64,000 nucleotides of DNA from Methanotorris igneus Kol 5 (GCF_000214415.1 NC_015562.1:682001-746000), one strand, 5' to 3'; numbered from the stretch's first letter, positions 6,798 through 57,360 are shown. The notes: generated from the sequence alone by a model not told the origin. Program-made: numbers and translations.

Positions 6798-8459
6798 TTA
6801 TTTTGAAAACCTAAGGGCAGATATAAATTCAGTCTCAAAATTGCTATGACTACTCAACTCTATATATTTTGTATTTTTAGCCAATTCATTAGCTTCATTT
6901 CTAATTTTTTCAGAAAGTAAAGCCATTATTGCACCTCTTCCTGCAGCATTATCTATATGGATTATATTATTTAGATCAGGTAGAAGACCTATAGTCTTAG
7001 CATTTTTAACATCTATATGACAACCAAATGCTCCTGTAATATAAACTTTTGATATATCCTCAATGTCAATGCCGTACTCATGACATAAGATTTTAATACC
7101 CGCAAATATTGCTCCTTTTGCAAGCTGCACTTCTCTAATATCTCCCTGAGAGAAATAAATAGTATCATCAATAAAAAACTTATTATCTCTTAGATTTTTA
7201 TGCTCTCCAACAAACCTTCCAGTTTTATCAACTATTCCAGATCTTAAAAGTTCAGCCATAATATCTATTATTCCTGATCCACAAATACCTATTGGAGGTT
7301 TCTTATTACCTATGGTCTCATAATATACACAATCTTCATTTATCTTTACCTTACATATTGCTCCTTCTTTAGCATTGGTCCCATGTTCAATATTAACCCC
7401 TTCAAATGCTGGACCTGCTGCACATGAACAAGTTAATAACTTCTCCTTATTTCCCAATACAATTTCTCCATTTGTACCTATGTCTATAAGAAGACTTATT
7501 TCATTTTTCTTATGCATTTCTGTAGATAATATTGCCCCAACAGTATCTGCACCAACAAATCCTCCTATTATTGGTAATGTGTAAACATCTGCATTTTTTA
7601 GATCCAACCCCACCATCTTTGCAGGCATATATAATGAATTTTTAAAGGTTGGGACATATGGATATGTTGCAAGATTTTTTGGAAGTATTCCACAAAAAAG
7701 GTGTATCATGGCAGTATTACCCACAACAGTAACTTCATAGATATTATCCATTTTTATATTATTTTTAGAACACAGTTTTGATATGGCATTATTTAGTTCT
7801 GTTATAAGCACTTTTTGCAGTAAATCTCCGTTATTATATGCTATCCTTGAAATTACATCTGCTCCAAATTGTCTTTGAGGATTTAAAAAGGAAATTGTAT
7901 CTACAACTACACCATTACACATATCAACAAGATAAACTACCACAGATGTGGTCCCAATATCGATTGAAAGACCATATATCCCTGAAAAATCTTTTTCTAC
8001 ATTAACAACATTATTATTTTTTAATATTAGATTTACTTTATCTGATAAATTCATAGAGTTAAGTTTAACTATTGCTTTTAAGGTTAAATTATAGTTAGAT
8101 GATTCCGATACTGTTGTGCTAATTTTTTTTATGTTGATGTCTGGGATTATTGAGGGAGATGAATATCCGCTAATGCTTTTACAAACCACTCCTTCAAAAT
8201 TAGGGATTTTTACCACCACATCTCCATAAACTCTTGCAATACATGCCAATGCATAGTTACCATCTACAATGCTGATTTCTTCAATATTTTCTAAACCTTC
8301 TTCTATTAAAACCTTACATTTACCACACTTTCCAGTTCCACAAGGGGCATCAAGATATATTCCAGCATTTATTGCTCCTTCAAGTATTGTGGTACCTTTA
8401 TCAACAACCACTGACTTTTTTGTTCCATCTTCCATGATATAAGTAATTTTACACATCAT
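6798..8459 (-). CDS. corrinoid protein reductive activator (RACo-like), ferredoxin plus ASKHA
   Basis: About 553 residues. Residues 1-85 are a plant-type [2Fe-2S] ferredoxin domain: Cx4Cx2C (C40, C45, C48) and a fourth Cys near 73 in YALACIA. The remainder is the DUF4445 ASKHA ATPase seen in corrinoid activators, with the phosphate-binding GLSIDIGTTSVVVYL and a second LLIDIGTNGEIVLG. Such proteins use ATP to reduce Co(II) corrinoids to Co(I). Methanogen RamA has C-terminal [4Fe-4S] clusters instead, so this is the bacterial layout. ATGATG overlaps the stop of the preceding methyltransferase gene, with GGAAGGTG just before it. It is the last gene of the corrinoid operon. Confidence 0.88.
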   Translation of the reverse strand: MMCKITYIMEDGTKKSVVVDKGTTILEGAINAGIYLDAPCGTGKCGKCKVLIEEGLENIEEISIVDGNYALACIARVYGDVVVKIPNFEGVVCKSISGYSSPSIIPDINIKKISTTVSESSNYNLTLKAIVKLNSMNLSDKVNLILKNNNVVNVEKDFSGIYGLSIDIGTTSVVVYLVDMCNGVVVDTISFLNPQRQFGADVISRIAYNNGDLLQKVLITELNNAISKLCSKNNIKMDNIYEVTVVGNTAMIHLFCGILPKNLATYPYVPTFKNSLYMPAKMVGLDLKNADVYTLPIIGGFVGADTVGAILSTEMHKKNEISLLIDIGTNGEIVLGNKEKLLTCSCAAGPAFEGVNIEHGTNAKEGAICKVKINEDCVYYETIGNKKPPIGICGSGIIDIMAELLRSGIVDKTGRFVGEHKNLRDNKFFIDDTIYFSQGDIREVQLAKGAIFAGIKILCHEYGIDIEDISKVYITGAFGCHIDVKNAKTIGLLPDLNNIIHIDNAAGRGAIMALLSEKIRNEANELAKNTKYIELSSHSNFETEFISALRFSK

Positions 8460-9393
8460 AACACCTTCCATAACGTACTAATGTTTTCAAATTTTCTTTT
8501 GGAGTACCTACGGGAATACTACATCCTGTAGATAATATGTAATCTCCAGTTTTAGATTCCATACATTTCTTTACTTCCGTTTTTACCCAATCTACATTGG
8601 AATGATACATCATTGAAGGATTAATATTTCCAAAAACAATTAAATCATTAAAAACTTCAAAAGCTTTGGAAATTTCCAAGTTATCATCAAAACTTATAAC
8701 TTTTGAACCCGTTTTTTTAATATCATCCAATATTGGGTTTATGTCCCCACACATGTGCAATATTGGAAAATCGCATAATTTTAATACTTTTTTTACAGGT
8801 TTAAAAGCAAATTCTCTATAAAATTCGGGACTAATAAGTGATGATGATGCTACTGCATCTACCACAAAAGGGTATGCTATATCTTTTATATCTTCTATCA
8901 CAATCTTAGAAATTTCTGTAGTTTTTTTAATCAAATCCTTAGCAAATTTTTTATTTTTTATTAAGTCTATCATGAATCTATCTATACCTCTTATAATTGC
9001 TGCAAGAGTAAATGGAGCACTTACACTTACAAATACAGTGTTATTTTTTGAGTTACAGTATTCAATCGCTTTTCTATATTCTGAAACTCTTCCACTATTT
9101 AAATTAATTGTTAAACTATCTATGTCAAAGTTTTCATTCATTTTTCCGTATTCCTTATATATACAGCTCCAACTGTACAACCCCATAGCTTCTACTTCAA
9201 CATATATATCTGAAGATAGATGTATTATATCATAACCAAAATATTCTTTTGCCTTACAAAGTGCTTTACCAAAAATTTCCCCATTTCTACAAAAATAATG
9301 TTTTTTCCCACATCCATAAAGTTTTGCAATATAACATCCGCCCATAGGAGCTATTAAAGTTCTATTTTTCACTTCCTCTTCAATATCAATCAT
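8449..9393 (-). CDS. MtaA/UroD-family corrinoid methyltransferase, paralogue 3
   Basis: 314 residues. It belongs to the uroporphyrinogen decarboxylase superfamily branch of MtaA/MtbA/CmuA. The putative zinc ligands are retained: HMCGD (His-x-Cys) and a Cys in STGCSIP near the C-terminus. SSSLISPEFYREFAFKPVKK is the usual segment before the zinc site. The N-terminus is divergent and Cys-rich (GGCYIAKLYGCGKKHYFC). It overlaps the previous gene by 8 bases and the next by about 10, so it is translationally coupled. It could transfer methyl from a substrate to the corrinoid protein or from corrinoid to coenzyme M; sequence alone does not decide. Confidence 0.82.
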   Translation of the reverse strand: MIDIEEEVKNRTLIAPMGGCYIAKLYGCGKKHYFCRNGEIFGKALCKAKEYFGYDIIHLSSDIYVEVEAMGLYSWSCIYKEYGKMNENFDIDSLTINLNSGRVSEYRKAIEYCNSKNNTVFVSVSAPFTLAAIIRGIDRFMIDLIKNKKFAKDLIKKTTEISKIVIEDIKDIAYPFVVDAVASSSLISPEFYREFAFKPVKKVLKLCDFPILHMCGDINPILDDIKKTGSKVISFDDNLEISKAFEVFNDLIVFGNINPSMMYHSNVDWVKTEVKKCMESKTGDYILSTGCSIPVGTPKENLKTLVRYGRCYDV

Positions 9394-10189
9394 AATCTAC
9401 CCTCGAATTAATTAATTTTATAATGTTTTTTTCTGGCGTATTGGGAAGTAACTCACAACCTGTTGATAGTATGTGCTGTTTTTTTCTATTTTTCAAAATG
9501 TAATGTATTTGACTATCTATATTCCCATTTAGCATATCTTTAGGTTTTACATTACCCATTAATACACAATCAAGGGTTCCTACAACATTTAAACTATCTT
9601 CAAAACTTAGAACATCAATATCTAAATTTTTTAATTGTTCAATAATTGGAGATAACTCTCCACAAATATGTAAAAATGTAGGAATTCCAAATGATTTTAT
9701 AAATTTAAATATTTTCTTTAAATACGGTATTCCAAATTCTTTATACATCTTAGGTCCAATAAATGGGGCAGTAGGGTCTCCTAAGAATGGAATCCCATCA
9801 TTTTCAATAATTGTTCTAATATTATCTTTAAGAAATTCTACATAATTATAAATTTTTGAATGAATTTCTTCTTTTTTTAAATAAAGATTTACCATAAAAT
9901 TATCATCAGTTGCAGATAGGTAAGATATTGGACAATTTAGAGAGACTGTGATATATGTATCCTTTATTTTCCTTCTTAGTATCTTTAAAGCTTGAATTTC
10001 TAAGTATGTATTTTCATGTATAATTGTTATTAAATCTGGTCTATATTTTTTATATAGTTCCAAATAGAAATTGGCCAAATTTTTACTATCCTTTATATGA
10101 CGGTTTAAAAAAATTGGACTGGCTATAAATGTAGAGGGAACATTACCTCCCCCTGAAAGAACACTGTCTATTCTTTCTTTTGGTGTCAT
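9386..10189 (-). CDS. MtaA/UroD-family methyltransferase, short paralogue 2
   Basis: 267 residues, about 70 shorter than the first paralogue, mainly by loss in the first half. It keeps MTPKERIDSVLSGG at the start, LHICGE with the His-x-Cys zinc pair, and STGCELLPNTPEKN with the third ligand, so it may still be active. GGTGTG precedes the ATG. It shares the operon with the corrinoid protein, two fuller paralogues and the activator. Its fast divergence suggests a different methyl donor or a support role. Confidence 0.78.
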   Translation of the reverse strand: MTPKERIDSVLSGGGNVPSTFIASPIFLNRHIKDSKNLANFYLELYKKYRPDLITIIHENTYLEIQALKILRRKIKDTYITVSLNCPISYLSATDDNFMVNLYLKKEEIHSKIYNYVEFLKDNIRTIIENDGIPFLGDPTAPFIGPKMYKEFGIPYLKKIFKFIKSFGIPTFLHICGELSPIIEQLKNLDIDVLSFEDSLNVVGTLDCVLMGNVKPKDMLNGNIDSQIHYILKNRKKQHILSTGCELLPNTPEKNIIKLINSRVDYD

Positions 10190-10251
10190 AAAAACACACC
10201 ATAAAAAATGTTTAGGTATTAATTATTTCAAAATTAACTATTTGGAATTAA

Positions 10252-11262
10252 CTATTGGACTTCTCCATAAAGTTCTGCAGCCTCAACTATGGCCTTTACA
10301 TTTTCTTCTTTAGATGCTAAGGGTATTTCACATCCTGATGCAAGGATATATCCTTTTGGATTATCTGAAGCATATTCTATTGCTTTTTTACATTCATTGA
10401 GAACATCTTCTTTGCTTCCAAGATATATGGTGCTTCCAGGATCTATATTTCCAATTATTCCTACATTTTTACCTACTTTCTCCTTCATTTCTTTTAAATT
10501 GACATTTGCATCAACACTTAAGAAATCTGCGCCAGTTTTAACCATAAGCTCAAGAATTGGATTTACATCTCCACAAATGTGTAATATTGCAGGCAATCCG
10601 CGCTTGTGTATTTCTTTCACAATTTCTTTACAAGGATTTAATGCAAACTCTTCATAAAATTTTGGACTTATTAAAGAACCAGATGCTATTGGATCACAAA
10701 TTAATGGAATGGCCCCTCTATCCATGCATGCATTTATAAATAATTTTGAAGCCTCTGTTGCTAACTTTATCTCCTCTTTAATTACATCTGGATTCATCAC
10801 TAAATCCATCATCATACTTTCTGTTCCATGAAGATTTCCTGCTATTGTAAATGGCCCTGGAACACACATTCCTATAAATACTTCATTTCCTATTTTTTCT
10901 ACAAGATATTCAATACATTTTAAAAATTCTGGCATTCTTCCATCTTTTTCTGGATCAGGAATAGATATTTCTTCTAAGGATACATGTTTTTTAACTATTG
11001 GAACATCATTATCAAAATATTCCAATTCACAGCCCATAGCTTCAGCTTCTATACATAAATCTGTTAATATAGTTACTAAATCTGGATTCATCTTTTTATA
11101 TGTGTATTCTATGGCTTTTGCTAATTTAATTCCATCTCTTGCAATTTCACTTACTTTATATCCTGATATTTTCCCTGCAAAATTTCCAATAAGTGGAACT
11201 GCTGGTATTCTGTCAATTCCACTTCCAGTAATTACTCCTAAAAGTCTTTCTTTTGGAATCAT
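10252..11262 (-). CDS. MtaA-like methylcobamide:coenzyme M methyltransferase, paralogue 1
   Basis: 336 residues, the expected length for MtaA/MtbA, and the best conserved of the three. It has MIPKERLLGVITGSGIDRIPAVP at the start, CDPIASGSLISPKFYEEF, the zinc motif LHICGD, IGNIDPGST, and the third ligand in LASGCEIP. Known relatives move methyl from a methyl-corrinoid protein to coenzyme M thiolate at zinc. Only 9 bases separate it from the corrinoid protein gene upstream; GGTGA precedes the start. It is the most likely CoM-methylating enzyme of the operon. Confidence 0.85.
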   Translation of the reverse strand: MIPKERLLGVITGSGIDRIPAVPLIGNFAGKISGYKVSEIARDGIKLAKAIEYTYKKMNPDLVTILTDLCIEAEAMGCELEYFDNDVPIVKKHVSLEEISIPDPEKDGRMPEFLKCIEYLVEKIGNEVFIGMCVPGPFTIAGNLHGTESMMMDLVMNPDVIKEEIKLATEASKLFINACMDRGAIPLICDPIASGSLISPKFYEEFALNPCKEIVKEIHKRGLPAILHICGDVNPILELMVKTGADFLSVDANVNLKEMKEKVGKNVGIIGNIDPGSTIYLGSKEDVLNECKKAIEYASDNPKGYILASGCEIPLASKEENVKAIVEAAELYGEVQ

Positions 11263-11271
11263 ATTTTCACC

Positions 11272-11940
11272 TTATTGTTTTATGTTTTTTCCTTTTCTTT
11301 TTTTATAGAGTTCTTTAGCTACTTTTAAGGCCTCATTAGCATTGTCTGTGTATGCATCTGCACCAATTTCTTTTGCAAATGCAGAAGATACTGGGCCCCC
11401 ACCTATCATCACTATAAATTTGTCCCTAACTCCTCTTTCTTTCAAAACGTCAATAACCTTTTTCATATTGTACATTGTTGTGGTCATCATTGTGGACATT
11501 ACAATTATATCCGCATTAATCTCTATGGCATAATCAACAAATTTTTCACATGGCACATTTCTACCTAAATCATGAACTTCAAAACCTCCAGCTTCTAACA
11601 TCATTGCCACAATATTTTTACCAATTTCATGAATATCTCCTTCAACAACTCCTATCACAACCTTAGCTGGAATATCATCTTTATCCAATTTCACATGTGG
11701 TTTTAGAACATCTATTGCTTTATTCATTACATTTGAAGCTATTAATACTTCAGGAACAAAATATTCCTTTTTTTCATACTTGTCTCCTACAATTTTCATC
11801 CCTTTACACAATCCATCCATTATTGCTATATGTGCAGGAATACCTGCTTTTAGTGCTTCATTTGCGGCTTTTAACGCCCTATTTTCATCTAAATTTACAA
11901 CAGATTCTGAAAGTTCATTTAAAATATCTGTACTCACCAT
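11272..11940 (-). CDS. methyltransferase corrinoid protein (MtbC/MttC/MtpC-like)
   Basis: 222 residues. The first 85 form the helical cap domain of methyltransferase corrinoid proteins. The Rossmann-like B12 domain follows, with the cobalt-ligand motif GDIHEIGKNIV (DxHxxG), then a STMMTTTM segment and GGGPVS. It carries the methyl group between a donor methyltransferase and a coenzyme M methyltransferase, and needs ATP-dependent reactivation when oxidised. First gene of a five-gene leftward operon with GGTGAT immediately before the ATG. No MtaB, MtmB, MtbB or MttB gene is nearby, so the methyl donor is unknown. Confidence 0.92.
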   Translation of the reverse strand: MVSTDILNELSESVVNLDENRALKAANEALKAGIPAHIAIMDGLCKGMKIVGDKYEKKEYFVPEVLIASNVMNKAIDVLKPHVKLDKDDIPAKVVIGVVEGDIHEIGKNIVAMMLEAGGFEVHDLGRNVPCEKFVDYAIEINADIIVMSTMMTTTMYNMKKVIDVLKERGVRDKFIVMIGGGPVSSAFAKEIGADAYTDNANEALKVAKELYKKRKGKNIKQ

Positions 11941-11960
11941 ATCACCATATTAGATTTTTT

Positions 11961-12040
11961 AATATATATTATAATTTTACTAATGGTTCTTTAATTATTT
12001 TTATTCTTTAAATAATTTTCGATATTGCCATTATTGCGAT
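11961..12040 (-). promoter_or_regulatory. promoter region of the corrinoid operon
   Basis: On the minus strand an AATTATAATATATATT box (plus-strand 11961-11976) lies about 25-35 bases before the ATG, giving a very short leader. About 50 bases further upstream two adjacent 9-mers, TATTGCCAT and TATTGCGAT (12023-12040), form a tandem repeat that could bind a regulator. The operator role is a guess. Confidence 0.35.
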
Positions 12041-12270
12041 CTAACTATTAAATATTATTATATTTAAATATATGGTATAAATAATAAAATATTTATAAAA
12101 ACAGAGTGTTGAATAGATAAAATACCAAGCATGTCTATCCACGTTCAAACTAAAATAATTTAAAAAAAGACAAACCTTAGTTATATTGAGAAAGTTGAGA
12201 TTCTTAGGAAAGAAAGGATTAACAGATACTGGAAAGACATTAGCTGAGGATTATAATAAATTCACAAACT

Positions 12271-12748
12271 GAGGGTGGTGCATAATTAAAAAATTTAAAT
12301 ATGGTGAGTCAAAAATAGAATACAAAAAGTGATAAAAATCGAATGGTGAATGCCCATGGACGCCGTTAAGATAGTTATAACTTCGATAGATAAATATCTT
12401 ACTGATAAATCGGAGATTTAAAATTAACAGCGTGGCAGGATTATGGTGTTATACTTAAAACTGGACATAATCCAAGAAGATTGGGTAGAGATAAAAAGAA
12501 AAAAATGGATAAAAAGTTTGCAGAGATGAGAGAACGAATAGAGCAGTTAAATTCGATAATAAAAACCAGATTATGAATAGATTTTGGACGAATATAAAAG
12601 GTTTTAAGAAAAATACGTTTTCTGTATGTTATCGGTTGTAACCGCACAGATATTAGCTATTTACAACCTAAAAACTCATGGTTACCCATTAATAAGGATT
12701 AAAGATGTTAGGGCATAAATTTAGATGTATCAATTATGCACCACACTC
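12271..12748. mobile_element. decayed insertion sequence with matching terminal inverted repeats
   Basis: The ends are GAGGGTGGTGCATAATT (12271-12287) and the inverse of GAGTGTGGTGCATAATT (12732-12748), 17 bases with one mismatch. Inside, in broken frames, are transposase-like pieces: KTGHNPRRLGRDKKKKMDKK, RIEQLNSIIKTRL and FWTNIKGFKKN, which look like the C-terminal region of a DDE transposase. Several stops and frame changes show it is dead, and at 478 bases it has lost most of its transposase. No clear target-site duplication is visible. Family assignment is uncertain. Confidence 0.7.
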
Positions 12749-12815
12749 AATAAATTATACTAAAAATAAAAAATAAAAATTTTAGCGAGGAAGATATATA
12801 AAGTTAAATTAGAAG

Positions 12816-35056: not shown

Positions 35057-36059
35057 GTTTCCATCCTTGTTTTAATGGATGAGGTATTCAAACTTCGCAT
35101 ACTTAAGCTCAGCAGCCACAGGCAATCTTGGTTTCCATCCTTGTTTTAATGGATGAGGTATTCAAACGAAATTACTTGTTTGAAGAAAGAAAGTCAATTA
35201 GGGACGTGTTTCCATCCTTGTTTTAATGGATGAGGTATTCAAACACTTCCAAGGCTTTTCTGAAACATCTAATATGGTTAGTTTCCATCCTTGTTTTAAT
35301 GGATGAGGTATTCAAACAATCCAATATACGACCTTGGAAAAATTGAATTGCCTCGTTTCCATCCTTGTTTTAATGGATGAGGTATTCAAACACTAACTTC
35401 TTCCCAACTTCATTTCCGTTCTTGTCAAGTTTCCATCCTTGTTTTAATGGATGAGGTATTCAAACATTACATTCATAGGTCAAACATGGTTGAGTATCTT
35501 GGTTTCCATCCTTGTTTTAATGGATGAGGTATTCAAACTTATAGAGCGAAGACGGGGCGGGATGGGAGGGAGAGTTTCCATCCTTGTTTTAATGGATGAG
35601 GTATTCAAACAGAGGCATGGCATTGCCAGACGAATTAATGCAATATAGTTTCCATCCTTGTTTTAATGGATGAGGTATTCAAACAGGGAATGGGGGTTAA
35701 AGAAAATTATTGAATTAATGTTTCCATCCTTGTTTTAATGGATGAGATATTCAAACATATATCGCTGTGTGGTATTCTTATGTATGCGTTCGTTCCGTGT
35801 TTCCATCCTTGTTTTAATGGATGAGATATTCAAACATATATCGCTGTGTGGTATTCTTATGTATGCGTTCGTTCCGTGTTTCCATCCTTGTTTTAATGGA
35901 TGAGATATTCAAACATACTATCCACCTATTCGTTTTTTCATATGAAATTTGTTTCCATCCTTGTTTTAATGGATGAGATATTCAAACTAGCCACCAACTT
36001 CCAAGTAAAGTGGAGCAAAAAAGTTTCCATCCTTGTTTTAATGGATGAGGTATTCAAAC
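35057..36059 (-). CRISPR. CRISPR array 1: 14 repeats, 13 spacers
   Basis: Repeats are 37 bases; plus-strand form begins GTTTCCATCCTTGTTTTAAT and ends GATGAGGTATTCAAAC. Repeat starts: 35057, 35131, 35208, 35281, 35355, 35429, 35502, 35574, 35648, 35720, 35799, 35878, 35951, 36023. Spacers are 35-42 bases. Repeats 10-13 read GAGATATTC instead of GAGGTATTC. The spacers at 35757-35798 and 35836-35877 are identical. The conserved leader lies at the right end, so the crRNA precursor is made from the minus strand and the newest spacers are on the right. The array ends 5 bases from the DUF99 gene. Confidence 0.97.
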
Positions 36060-56955: not shown

Positions 56956-57360
56956 GTTTGAATATCTCATCCATTAAAACAAGGATGGAAACGCAATATC
57001 TCTAAACATGCTACATCACCATTTTCACGGTTTGAATTGCTTATCCATTAAAACAAGGATGGAAACACTTCTTGCCTATCAAGCACTATCGAAGCACCTT
57101 CAGTTTGAATTGCTTATCCATTAAAACAAGGATGGAAACTTGTAAAATTACTAAAACCGCTTATGAAAAAGTCTGGTTTGAATTGCTTATCCATTAAAAC
57201 AAGGATGGAAACTGAGTAGATATATAGTGGATTTAATAGGCGATGGTTGTTTGAATACCTCATCCATTAAAACAAGGATGGAAACAAACAAGGATAGAAA
57301 ATACTGCACTCGAAAACTCGAAAGTTCGAACACCTAATCTATTAAAACAAGGATGGAAAA
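56956..57360 (+). CRISPR. CRISPR array 2: six repeats, five spacers
   Basis: Repeat starts: 56956, 57030, 57103, 57176, 57249, 57324. The 37-base repeats end ATCCATTAAAACAAGGATGG plus AAAC. The 5' part varies: repeat 1 has GAATATCTC, repeats 2-4 GAATTGCTT, repeat 5 GAATACCTC, and the last is degenerate (GTTCGAACACCTAATCT). The leader is on the left and transcription is rightward. The last spacer starts with AAACAAGGATAGAAAA, itself like a repeat end, so the distal part has decayed. Confidence 0.96.

Follow-up and report, generated by a model that had tools for sequence, protein, structure and literature searches.

A divergent mlp gene cluster of Methanotorris igneus, preceded by a putative selenium-response box, probably serves selenium salvage from methylated selenides

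Within a 64,000-nucleotide stretch of the Methanotorris igneus Kol 5 genome (NC_015562.1:682001-746000, hereafter the window), a leftward operon at 6798-11940 encodes a corrinoid protein, three UroD-type methyltransferases (A, B and C) and an activase. We propose that it is a divergent mlp gene cluster (MGC) for selenium salvage through demethylation of methylated selenides and not a growth-substrate pathway, a reading to which we give a probability of about 0.72. It is favored because a regulatory box in front of the operon, a gene for the regulator HrsM, a selenocysteine-type SelD and homologous Methanococcus operons all point there. The relevant features are as follows (window coordinates; basis in parentheses).

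11272..11940, minus strand: corrinoid protein, first gene of the operon, 222 amino acids, MtbC/MtgC-like, with a DIHEIG cobalamin motif (Pfam, NCBIfam, corrinoid-protein tree)
10252..11262, minus strand: UroD-type methyltransferase A, 336 amino acids, zinc ligands H228, C230 and C311, Mlp2-side lineage (Pfam, NCBIfam, alignment, tree)
9386..10189, minus strand: UroD-type methyltransferase B, 267 amino acids, zinc ligands H174, C176 and C245, minimal 8-strand barrel (Pfam, NCBIfam, tree, AlphaFold)
8449..9393, minus strand: UroD-type methyltransferase C, 314 amino acids, zinc ligands H213, C215 and C291 (Pfam, NCBIfam, tree, AlphaFold)
6798..8471, minus strand: ATP-dependent corrinoid-protein reductive activase, 557 amino acids, N-terminal [2Fe-2S] ferredoxin plus RACo ASKHA domain (Pfam, NCBIfam, motifs)
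11947..11963, plus strand: putative selenium-response operator (HrsM-type box), ATATTAGATTTTTTAAT, one mismatch to the consensus palindrome (upstream alignment, pattern scan)
11999..12020, minus strand: AT-rich block, GAAAATTATTTAAAGAATAAAA, largely conserved upstream in three carrier genomes (upstream-region alignment)

The box was found by aligning the regions upstream of the operon in the three genomes that carry it, which revealed a 17-bp palindrome, ATTAGATTTTCTAAT, located shortly before the corrinoid gene. In the M. igneus window, the copy at 11947-11963, 6-10 bp in front of the operon, was the sole match within two mismatches (0.19 expected), and it was listed second of the 16 sites found when the complete genome, a single contig of 1,854,197 bases, was scanned with the pattern ATATTAGATTTTCTAAT at up to two mismatches. 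The reversed pattern gave only 2 sites. Under a Markov model built on the window, ∼7 sites are expected at two mismatches and zero at a single mismatch, a class in which 6 were observed. Each of the other two carriers (G034 and G023) has two copies of the box ∼100 bp apart upstream of the operon, and two copies were seen in none of 200 shuffles. The AT-rich block farther upstream may correspond to the TATA/promoter region.

Several other genes preceded or flanked by the box connect it to selenium. One site in M. igneus lies in the gap before a LysR gene whose product passes NF040786 (273.8 bits, cut-off 250) and is 79% identical to Methanococcus HrsM, and further sites accompany a TusA-DsrE operon, a ModA-like binding protein and a double-cubane reductase (NF040772). 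The best sites in relatives include those at hrsM, frc-vhc, TusA-DsrE, YedE, a double-cubane gene and the sdm/MGC operon; the HrsM target described in the literature lies between frc and vhc. In bacteria and in Methanococcus, many MGCs have a double-cubane gene next to them, whereas the M. igneus gene is located elsewhere but bears a box. This cross-genus overlap of box-bearing genes appears hard to explain by chance, and we predict that the box is an operator bound by HrsM.

Other box sites were observed in addition to these. A 2.6-kb segment around the genes for TusA-DsrE and a HAD-phosphatase-like protein holds three boxes (G000:C1:1279317-1281898; L215, L207, L208), and this group, 3 kb from SepSecS, is a possible selenium gene island. 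A box upstream of an apparent proteasome alpha subunit gene (psmA) is conserved in four Methanococcus genomes (L176, L177, L178, L203), and a one-mismatch box stands directly before a dCTP-deaminase-like gene (L187, G000:C1:367292-367308) that was identified by eye and has no evident selenium link.

The M. igneus genome contains tRNA-Sec, SepSecS and a SelD gene with an in-frame TGA (context HG-U-ACK), and because all three are present the organism very probably makes selenoproteins. Published work connects clusters of this kind to selenium in several ways. MGC/Sdm clusters have been tied to methyl-selenide metabolism, a clostridial Mlp2 methylates selenide in vitro, and Kountz and Balskus found type 1 MGCs among methanogens only in Methanococcus, Methanothermococcus and Methanotorris (PMC10418091). 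According to two reports, the M. voltae sdm genes, which encode a corrinoid protein and methyltransferases of this family, are required for dimethylselenide use (PMC10418091, PMC11097638). In M. maripaludis, MMJJ_01650-70 rises 5.6-7.8 log2 units upon selenium depletion and a second cluster, MMJJ_16960, is likewise induced; the genes induced by depletion include the MGC, frc/vhc, TusAD, YedE and a gene for a molybdate-binding protein (PMC11097638).

The composition of the operon agrees with a corrinoid methyl-transfer function. The initial annotation had described a single leftward unit of this kind at 6798-11940, and indeed five minus-strand open reading frames with the expected Pfam domains were found, two of their junctions being gaps (9 and 62 bases) and the other two overlaps (8 and 23 bases). 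The motifs it had named were located as well: the corrinoid protein has DIHEIG at residue 102, all three methyltransferases have HxC...C, and the ferredoxin part of the activase has Cx4Cx2C...C. The corrinoid protein consists of B12-binding and B12-binding_2 domains, and its gene may start at GTG 11937 instead of ATG 11940, because its relatives begin with M-S-T. Fer2, Raco_middle and RACo_C_ter make up the activase (PF00111, PF17651 and PF14574 each over cut-off), and with its [2Fe-2S] domain, RACo middle domain and ASKHA domain it is a corrinoid reductive activase of the RACo/RACE type. A URO-D domain was detected in A, B and C at 253, 101 and 153 bits, respectively, with zinc ligands HIC, HIC and HMC plus a distal Cys in a GC pair; H228, C230 and C311 are invariant in an alignment of 17 relatives.

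The description of A, B and C as three MtaA/UroD-type methyltransferases was thus right about the domain and the zinc ligands, but they are not three full-length copies of MtaA, B (267 residues) and C (314 residues) being short relative to the usual 340. The AlphaFold model of B (pLDDT 93) nevertheless has a full eight-strand barrel with H174/C176 and C245 at the ends of strands 5 and 8, and its top structural match in the PDB is MtaA, a coenzyme M methyltransferase (4ay7, TM 0.86). C is likewise predicted to fold well (pLDDT 89.6), and MtaA is the best PDB sequence match for A, B and C alike.

Family assignment of the three paralogues was addressed with profile models and a UroD-superfamily tree. 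MtaA/CmuA models outscored the HemE model for each protein (A, 201.6 vs 84.2 bits; B, 86.3 vs 31.8; C, 120.7 vs 55.5), with all three falling under every curated MtaA/MtbA/CmuA cut-off. We rejected a HemE identity, since the 84, 32 and 56 bits of A, B and C compare with a cut-off of 303 and are weaker than the MtaA/CmuA scores, and the zinc ligands are present. The possibility that the paralogues are true uroporphyrinogen decarboxylases is accordingly disfavored by model scores, the tree of 59 proteins having been built with true HemE sequences left out. In that tree, where the labels Mlp1, Mlp2 and Mlp3 were assigned by topology and gene position and not from the original authors' sequences, a group of SCMT, Mlp1 and Mlp3 split from Mlp2-like proteins with support of 100/100. 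A, B and C all fell on the Mlp2 side, A and C as sisters (93/90), and none of the operon proteins was recognized as a canonical Mlp3 or Mlp1. Placement in the coenzyme M methyltransferase clade (MtaA/MtbA/MtsA) was rejected by the approximately unbiased (AU) test (p = 4e-5 for A, 0.0034 for B and 1.5e-5 for C) as well as by the sub-cut-off scores. Grouping B with Mlp3 was rejected more weakly (p = 0.026), and the placement of B is the least sure because its branch is long and compositionally odd. Arrangements that survived the test include A, B and C as a single group (p = 0.49) and A with Mlp2 as one clade (p = 0.35), A being placed outside the canonical Mlp2 clade in the tree.

Comparison with described systems places the operon close to the Methanococcus selenium clusters in layout but apart from them in its enzymes. 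SdmABC of M. voltae and MMJJ_01650-70 of M. maripaludis share with it a corrinoid protein (50-51% identical), the order corrinoid-Mlp-Mlp-activase, a similar upstream box and the same host order. Their methyltransferases, however, are only ∼25-33% identical and branch separately: the canonical Mlp2 and Mlp3 of Methanococcus are embedded in a clostridial assemblage, whereas the M. igneus operon has three other Mlp2-side proteins. The corrinoid proteins also differ in their bacterial neighbors. Those of Methanococcus branch among clostridia, unlike that of M. igneus, which falls inside the bacterial MGC clade near Sporomusa and a Halanaerobium/Anaerosolibacter/Desulfosporosinus group. Because of these different neighbors, the two methanogen versions of the cluster appear to be separate acquisitions, with the M. 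igneus operon having been remodelled later. Like the type 1 MGCs of Kountz and Balskus, the operon combines two or more Mlps with a single corrinoid protein and a single Ram/RACE-type activase, all encoded in the same direction. The type 1 definition also calls for at least one Mlp2 and at least one Mlp3, whereas no protein of this operon groups with Mlp3 and two are shortened (267 and 314 amino acids); the authors nonetheless list Methanotorris as a carrier (PMC10418091). With MtaA, MtbA and MtsA of Methanosarcina, A, B and C share the fold and zinc ligands, but they stand outside that clade and below the curated cut-offs.

A further resemblance is to clusters in WOR-3 and Planctomycetia genomes (L056, L072, L077, L080), which pair a corrinoid protein with a UroD protein of ∼305 amino acids, accompanied by an activase in L056 and L077 and adjoined by a distant double-cubane-like gene. 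Joining C to these 305-residue proteins survives the AU test (p = 0.30). The clusters differ from the M. igneus operon in gene number, in the low identity of their proteins to C (27-29%) and in having corrinoid proteins outside the MGC core clade. These compact clusters are themselves possibly an undescribed MGC subtype.

Genome-wide, A, B and C are the only UroD family members of M. igneus, and there is one B12-binding_2 protein. The initial annotation had also remarked on the lack of a classical substrate methyltransferase, which holds for MtaB and MttB: the MtaB and MTTB models gave zero matches in the genome, MtmB and MtbB not having been searched for. Among 36 Methanococcales genomes, UroD-family matches occurred in 10 (9 above cut-off), and the same five-gene operon in the same order was found in three, namely M. 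igneus and the carriers G034 and G023, which belong to two other genera. Compared with the latter two, the corrinoid protein and the three methyltransferases are 78-88% identical, and the activase is 76-77% identical. No close relative of B was found beyond these three genomes, and the operon is absent from the second genome of the genus in the set (G035). Flanking genes are dissimilar across the three carriers, those in G034 and G023 being mostly unrelated housekeeping genes that offer no clue to the operon's function. A related but distinct operon, corrinoid-Mlp-Mlp-activase or the same with a third Mlp, occurs in six Methanococcus genomes. Near the M. igneus operon, 0.3 kb upstream, 31-nucleotide terminal inverted repeats (84% complementary, 418 nucleotides apart) were observed at 12270-12749; what lies between them is apparently a decayed transposase remnant, a possible insertion footprint beside the operon promoter.

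We envisage the following scheme. HrsM, a LysR regulator that senses selenium, would cease to repress the operon when selenium runs short. One or two of the paralogues would bind a methylated form of selenium (dimethylselenide, methylselenol or a related compound) at their His-Cys-Cys zinc, and the methyl group would pass to the Co(I) of the corrinoid protein. The freed selenide would enter SelD and selenocysteine synthesis. Another paralogue would unload the corrinoid protein by handing the methyl group to a thiol, probably coenzyme M, from which it would leave as trace methane, and the activase would spend ATP to re-reduce corrinoid that had slipped to Co(II). We infer the substrate, the division of labor among A, B and C, the methyl acceptor and HrsM binding. 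The scheme keeps from the initial annotation the CO2-reducing methanogen as host and the view that one of the UroD-type paralogues likely handles the donor.

Several observations weigh against this reading. The selenocysteine machinery is necessary but non-discriminating, since SepSecS is present in all 36 genomes of the order. About 10 of the 16 box sites in M. igneus have no evident selenium link, the distal box copy of G034 and G023 is not recognizable upstream of the M. igneus operon, and the connection of the box to HrsM is a prediction from sequence. The Methanococcus enzymes share only ∼25-34% identity with A, B and C, which lie outside the Mlp3 and coenzyme M methyltransferase clades; as no protein of the latter clade is present, the methyl acceptor is the weakest step of the scheme. 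Finally, methyl-sulfur donors share the same chemistry, and the sequence does not separate them from selenium donors.

This last point leads to the main rival, a methyl-sulfur system without a selenium role that demethylates methanethiol, dimethylsulfide or methylthio by-products (for example from methylthioadenosine) for sulfur or methionine salvage. His-Cys-Cys zinc sites suit thiols as well as selenols, such a role has been proposed for the non-selenium MGC clade, and the clostridial enzyme ClMlp2 works 4.3-fold more slowly on sulfide than on selenide, which makes some sulfur activity possible (PMC10418091). We nevertheless consider this rival unlikely given the box that the operon has in common with hrsM and the TusA-DsrE, ModA-like and double-cubane genes. 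Moreover, non-selenium MGCs are recognized by their Mlp3 clade (PMC10418091), and a canonical Mlp3 was not found here.

Energy metabolism offers a less probable explanation still, in which one UroD paralogue takes a methyl group from an external methylthio-like compound and another makes methyl-coenzyme M for methylotrophic methanogenesis. The order to which this organism belongs has a coenzyme M-based methane pathway, and a corrinoid protein, an activator and MtaA-like folds are all on hand. However, A, B and C lie outside the MtaA-type coenzyme M methyltransferases, the nearest homologous clusters come mostly from non-methanogenic anaerobes, and the operon is accessory, being carried by 3 of the 36 genomes. 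It seems very improbable that methoxy compounds are O-demethylated here by a UroD-type enzyme acting as OdmB/VdmB or MtoB, despite the existence of UroD-family O-demethylases and the shared architecture of corrinoid protein, activator and UroD protein. O-demethylases swap one or both zinc Cys residues for carboxylates or other residues, whereas all three sites here are His-Cys-Cys, a site argued to mean S or Se methyl transfer, and S/Se donors are favored over O donors for this reason (PMC10418091). The earlier suggestion that a methylthio or methoxy donor feeds methanogenesis was therefore abandoned on the combined grounds of the His-Cys-Cys sites, the AU exclusion from coenzyme M methyltransferases and the selenium-linked box.

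Returning to methyl-selenide salvage, a more specific version can be advanced tentatively. The operon could be a separately acquired and rebuilt salvage cluster that was brought under the ancestral HrsM box, in which three Mlp2-side enzymes, one of them a minimal 267-residue barrel, carry out both half-reactions without a partner from the coenzyme M methyltransferase clade or Mlp3. Its donor may then differ from dimethylselenide and be, for example, dimethyldiselenide, methylselenol or a seleno-amino-acid derivative. The cluster kind and its presence in Methanotorris are already published; what is new here is the link to regulation and a set of three enzymes that lacks an Mlp3.

Elsewhere in the window, two CRISPR arrays (Rfam CRISPR-DR7) lie ∼21 kb apart, one with 14 repeats on the minus strand (35057-36059) and one with 5 repeats on the plus strand (56956-57285). 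An entire 79-nucleotide repeat-spacer unit of the former is tandemly duplicated at 35719-35876.

If the proposed function is correct, the presence of methylotroph-like genes in a strictly CO2-reducing hyperthermophilic methanogen would be explained as trace-element scavenging and not as an overlooked growth substrate, and automatic annotation of the enzymes as uroporphyrinogen decarboxylases or methanogenic methyltransferases would mislead metabolic models. The short paralogues would provide a small scaffold for defining the minimal needs of a zinc-corrinoid methyltransferase. More broadly, the box would define a testable selenium regulon across the Methanococcaceae, in which hydrogenase isoenzyme switching, sulfur carriers, transporters and methyl-selenide salvage would come under one regulator.

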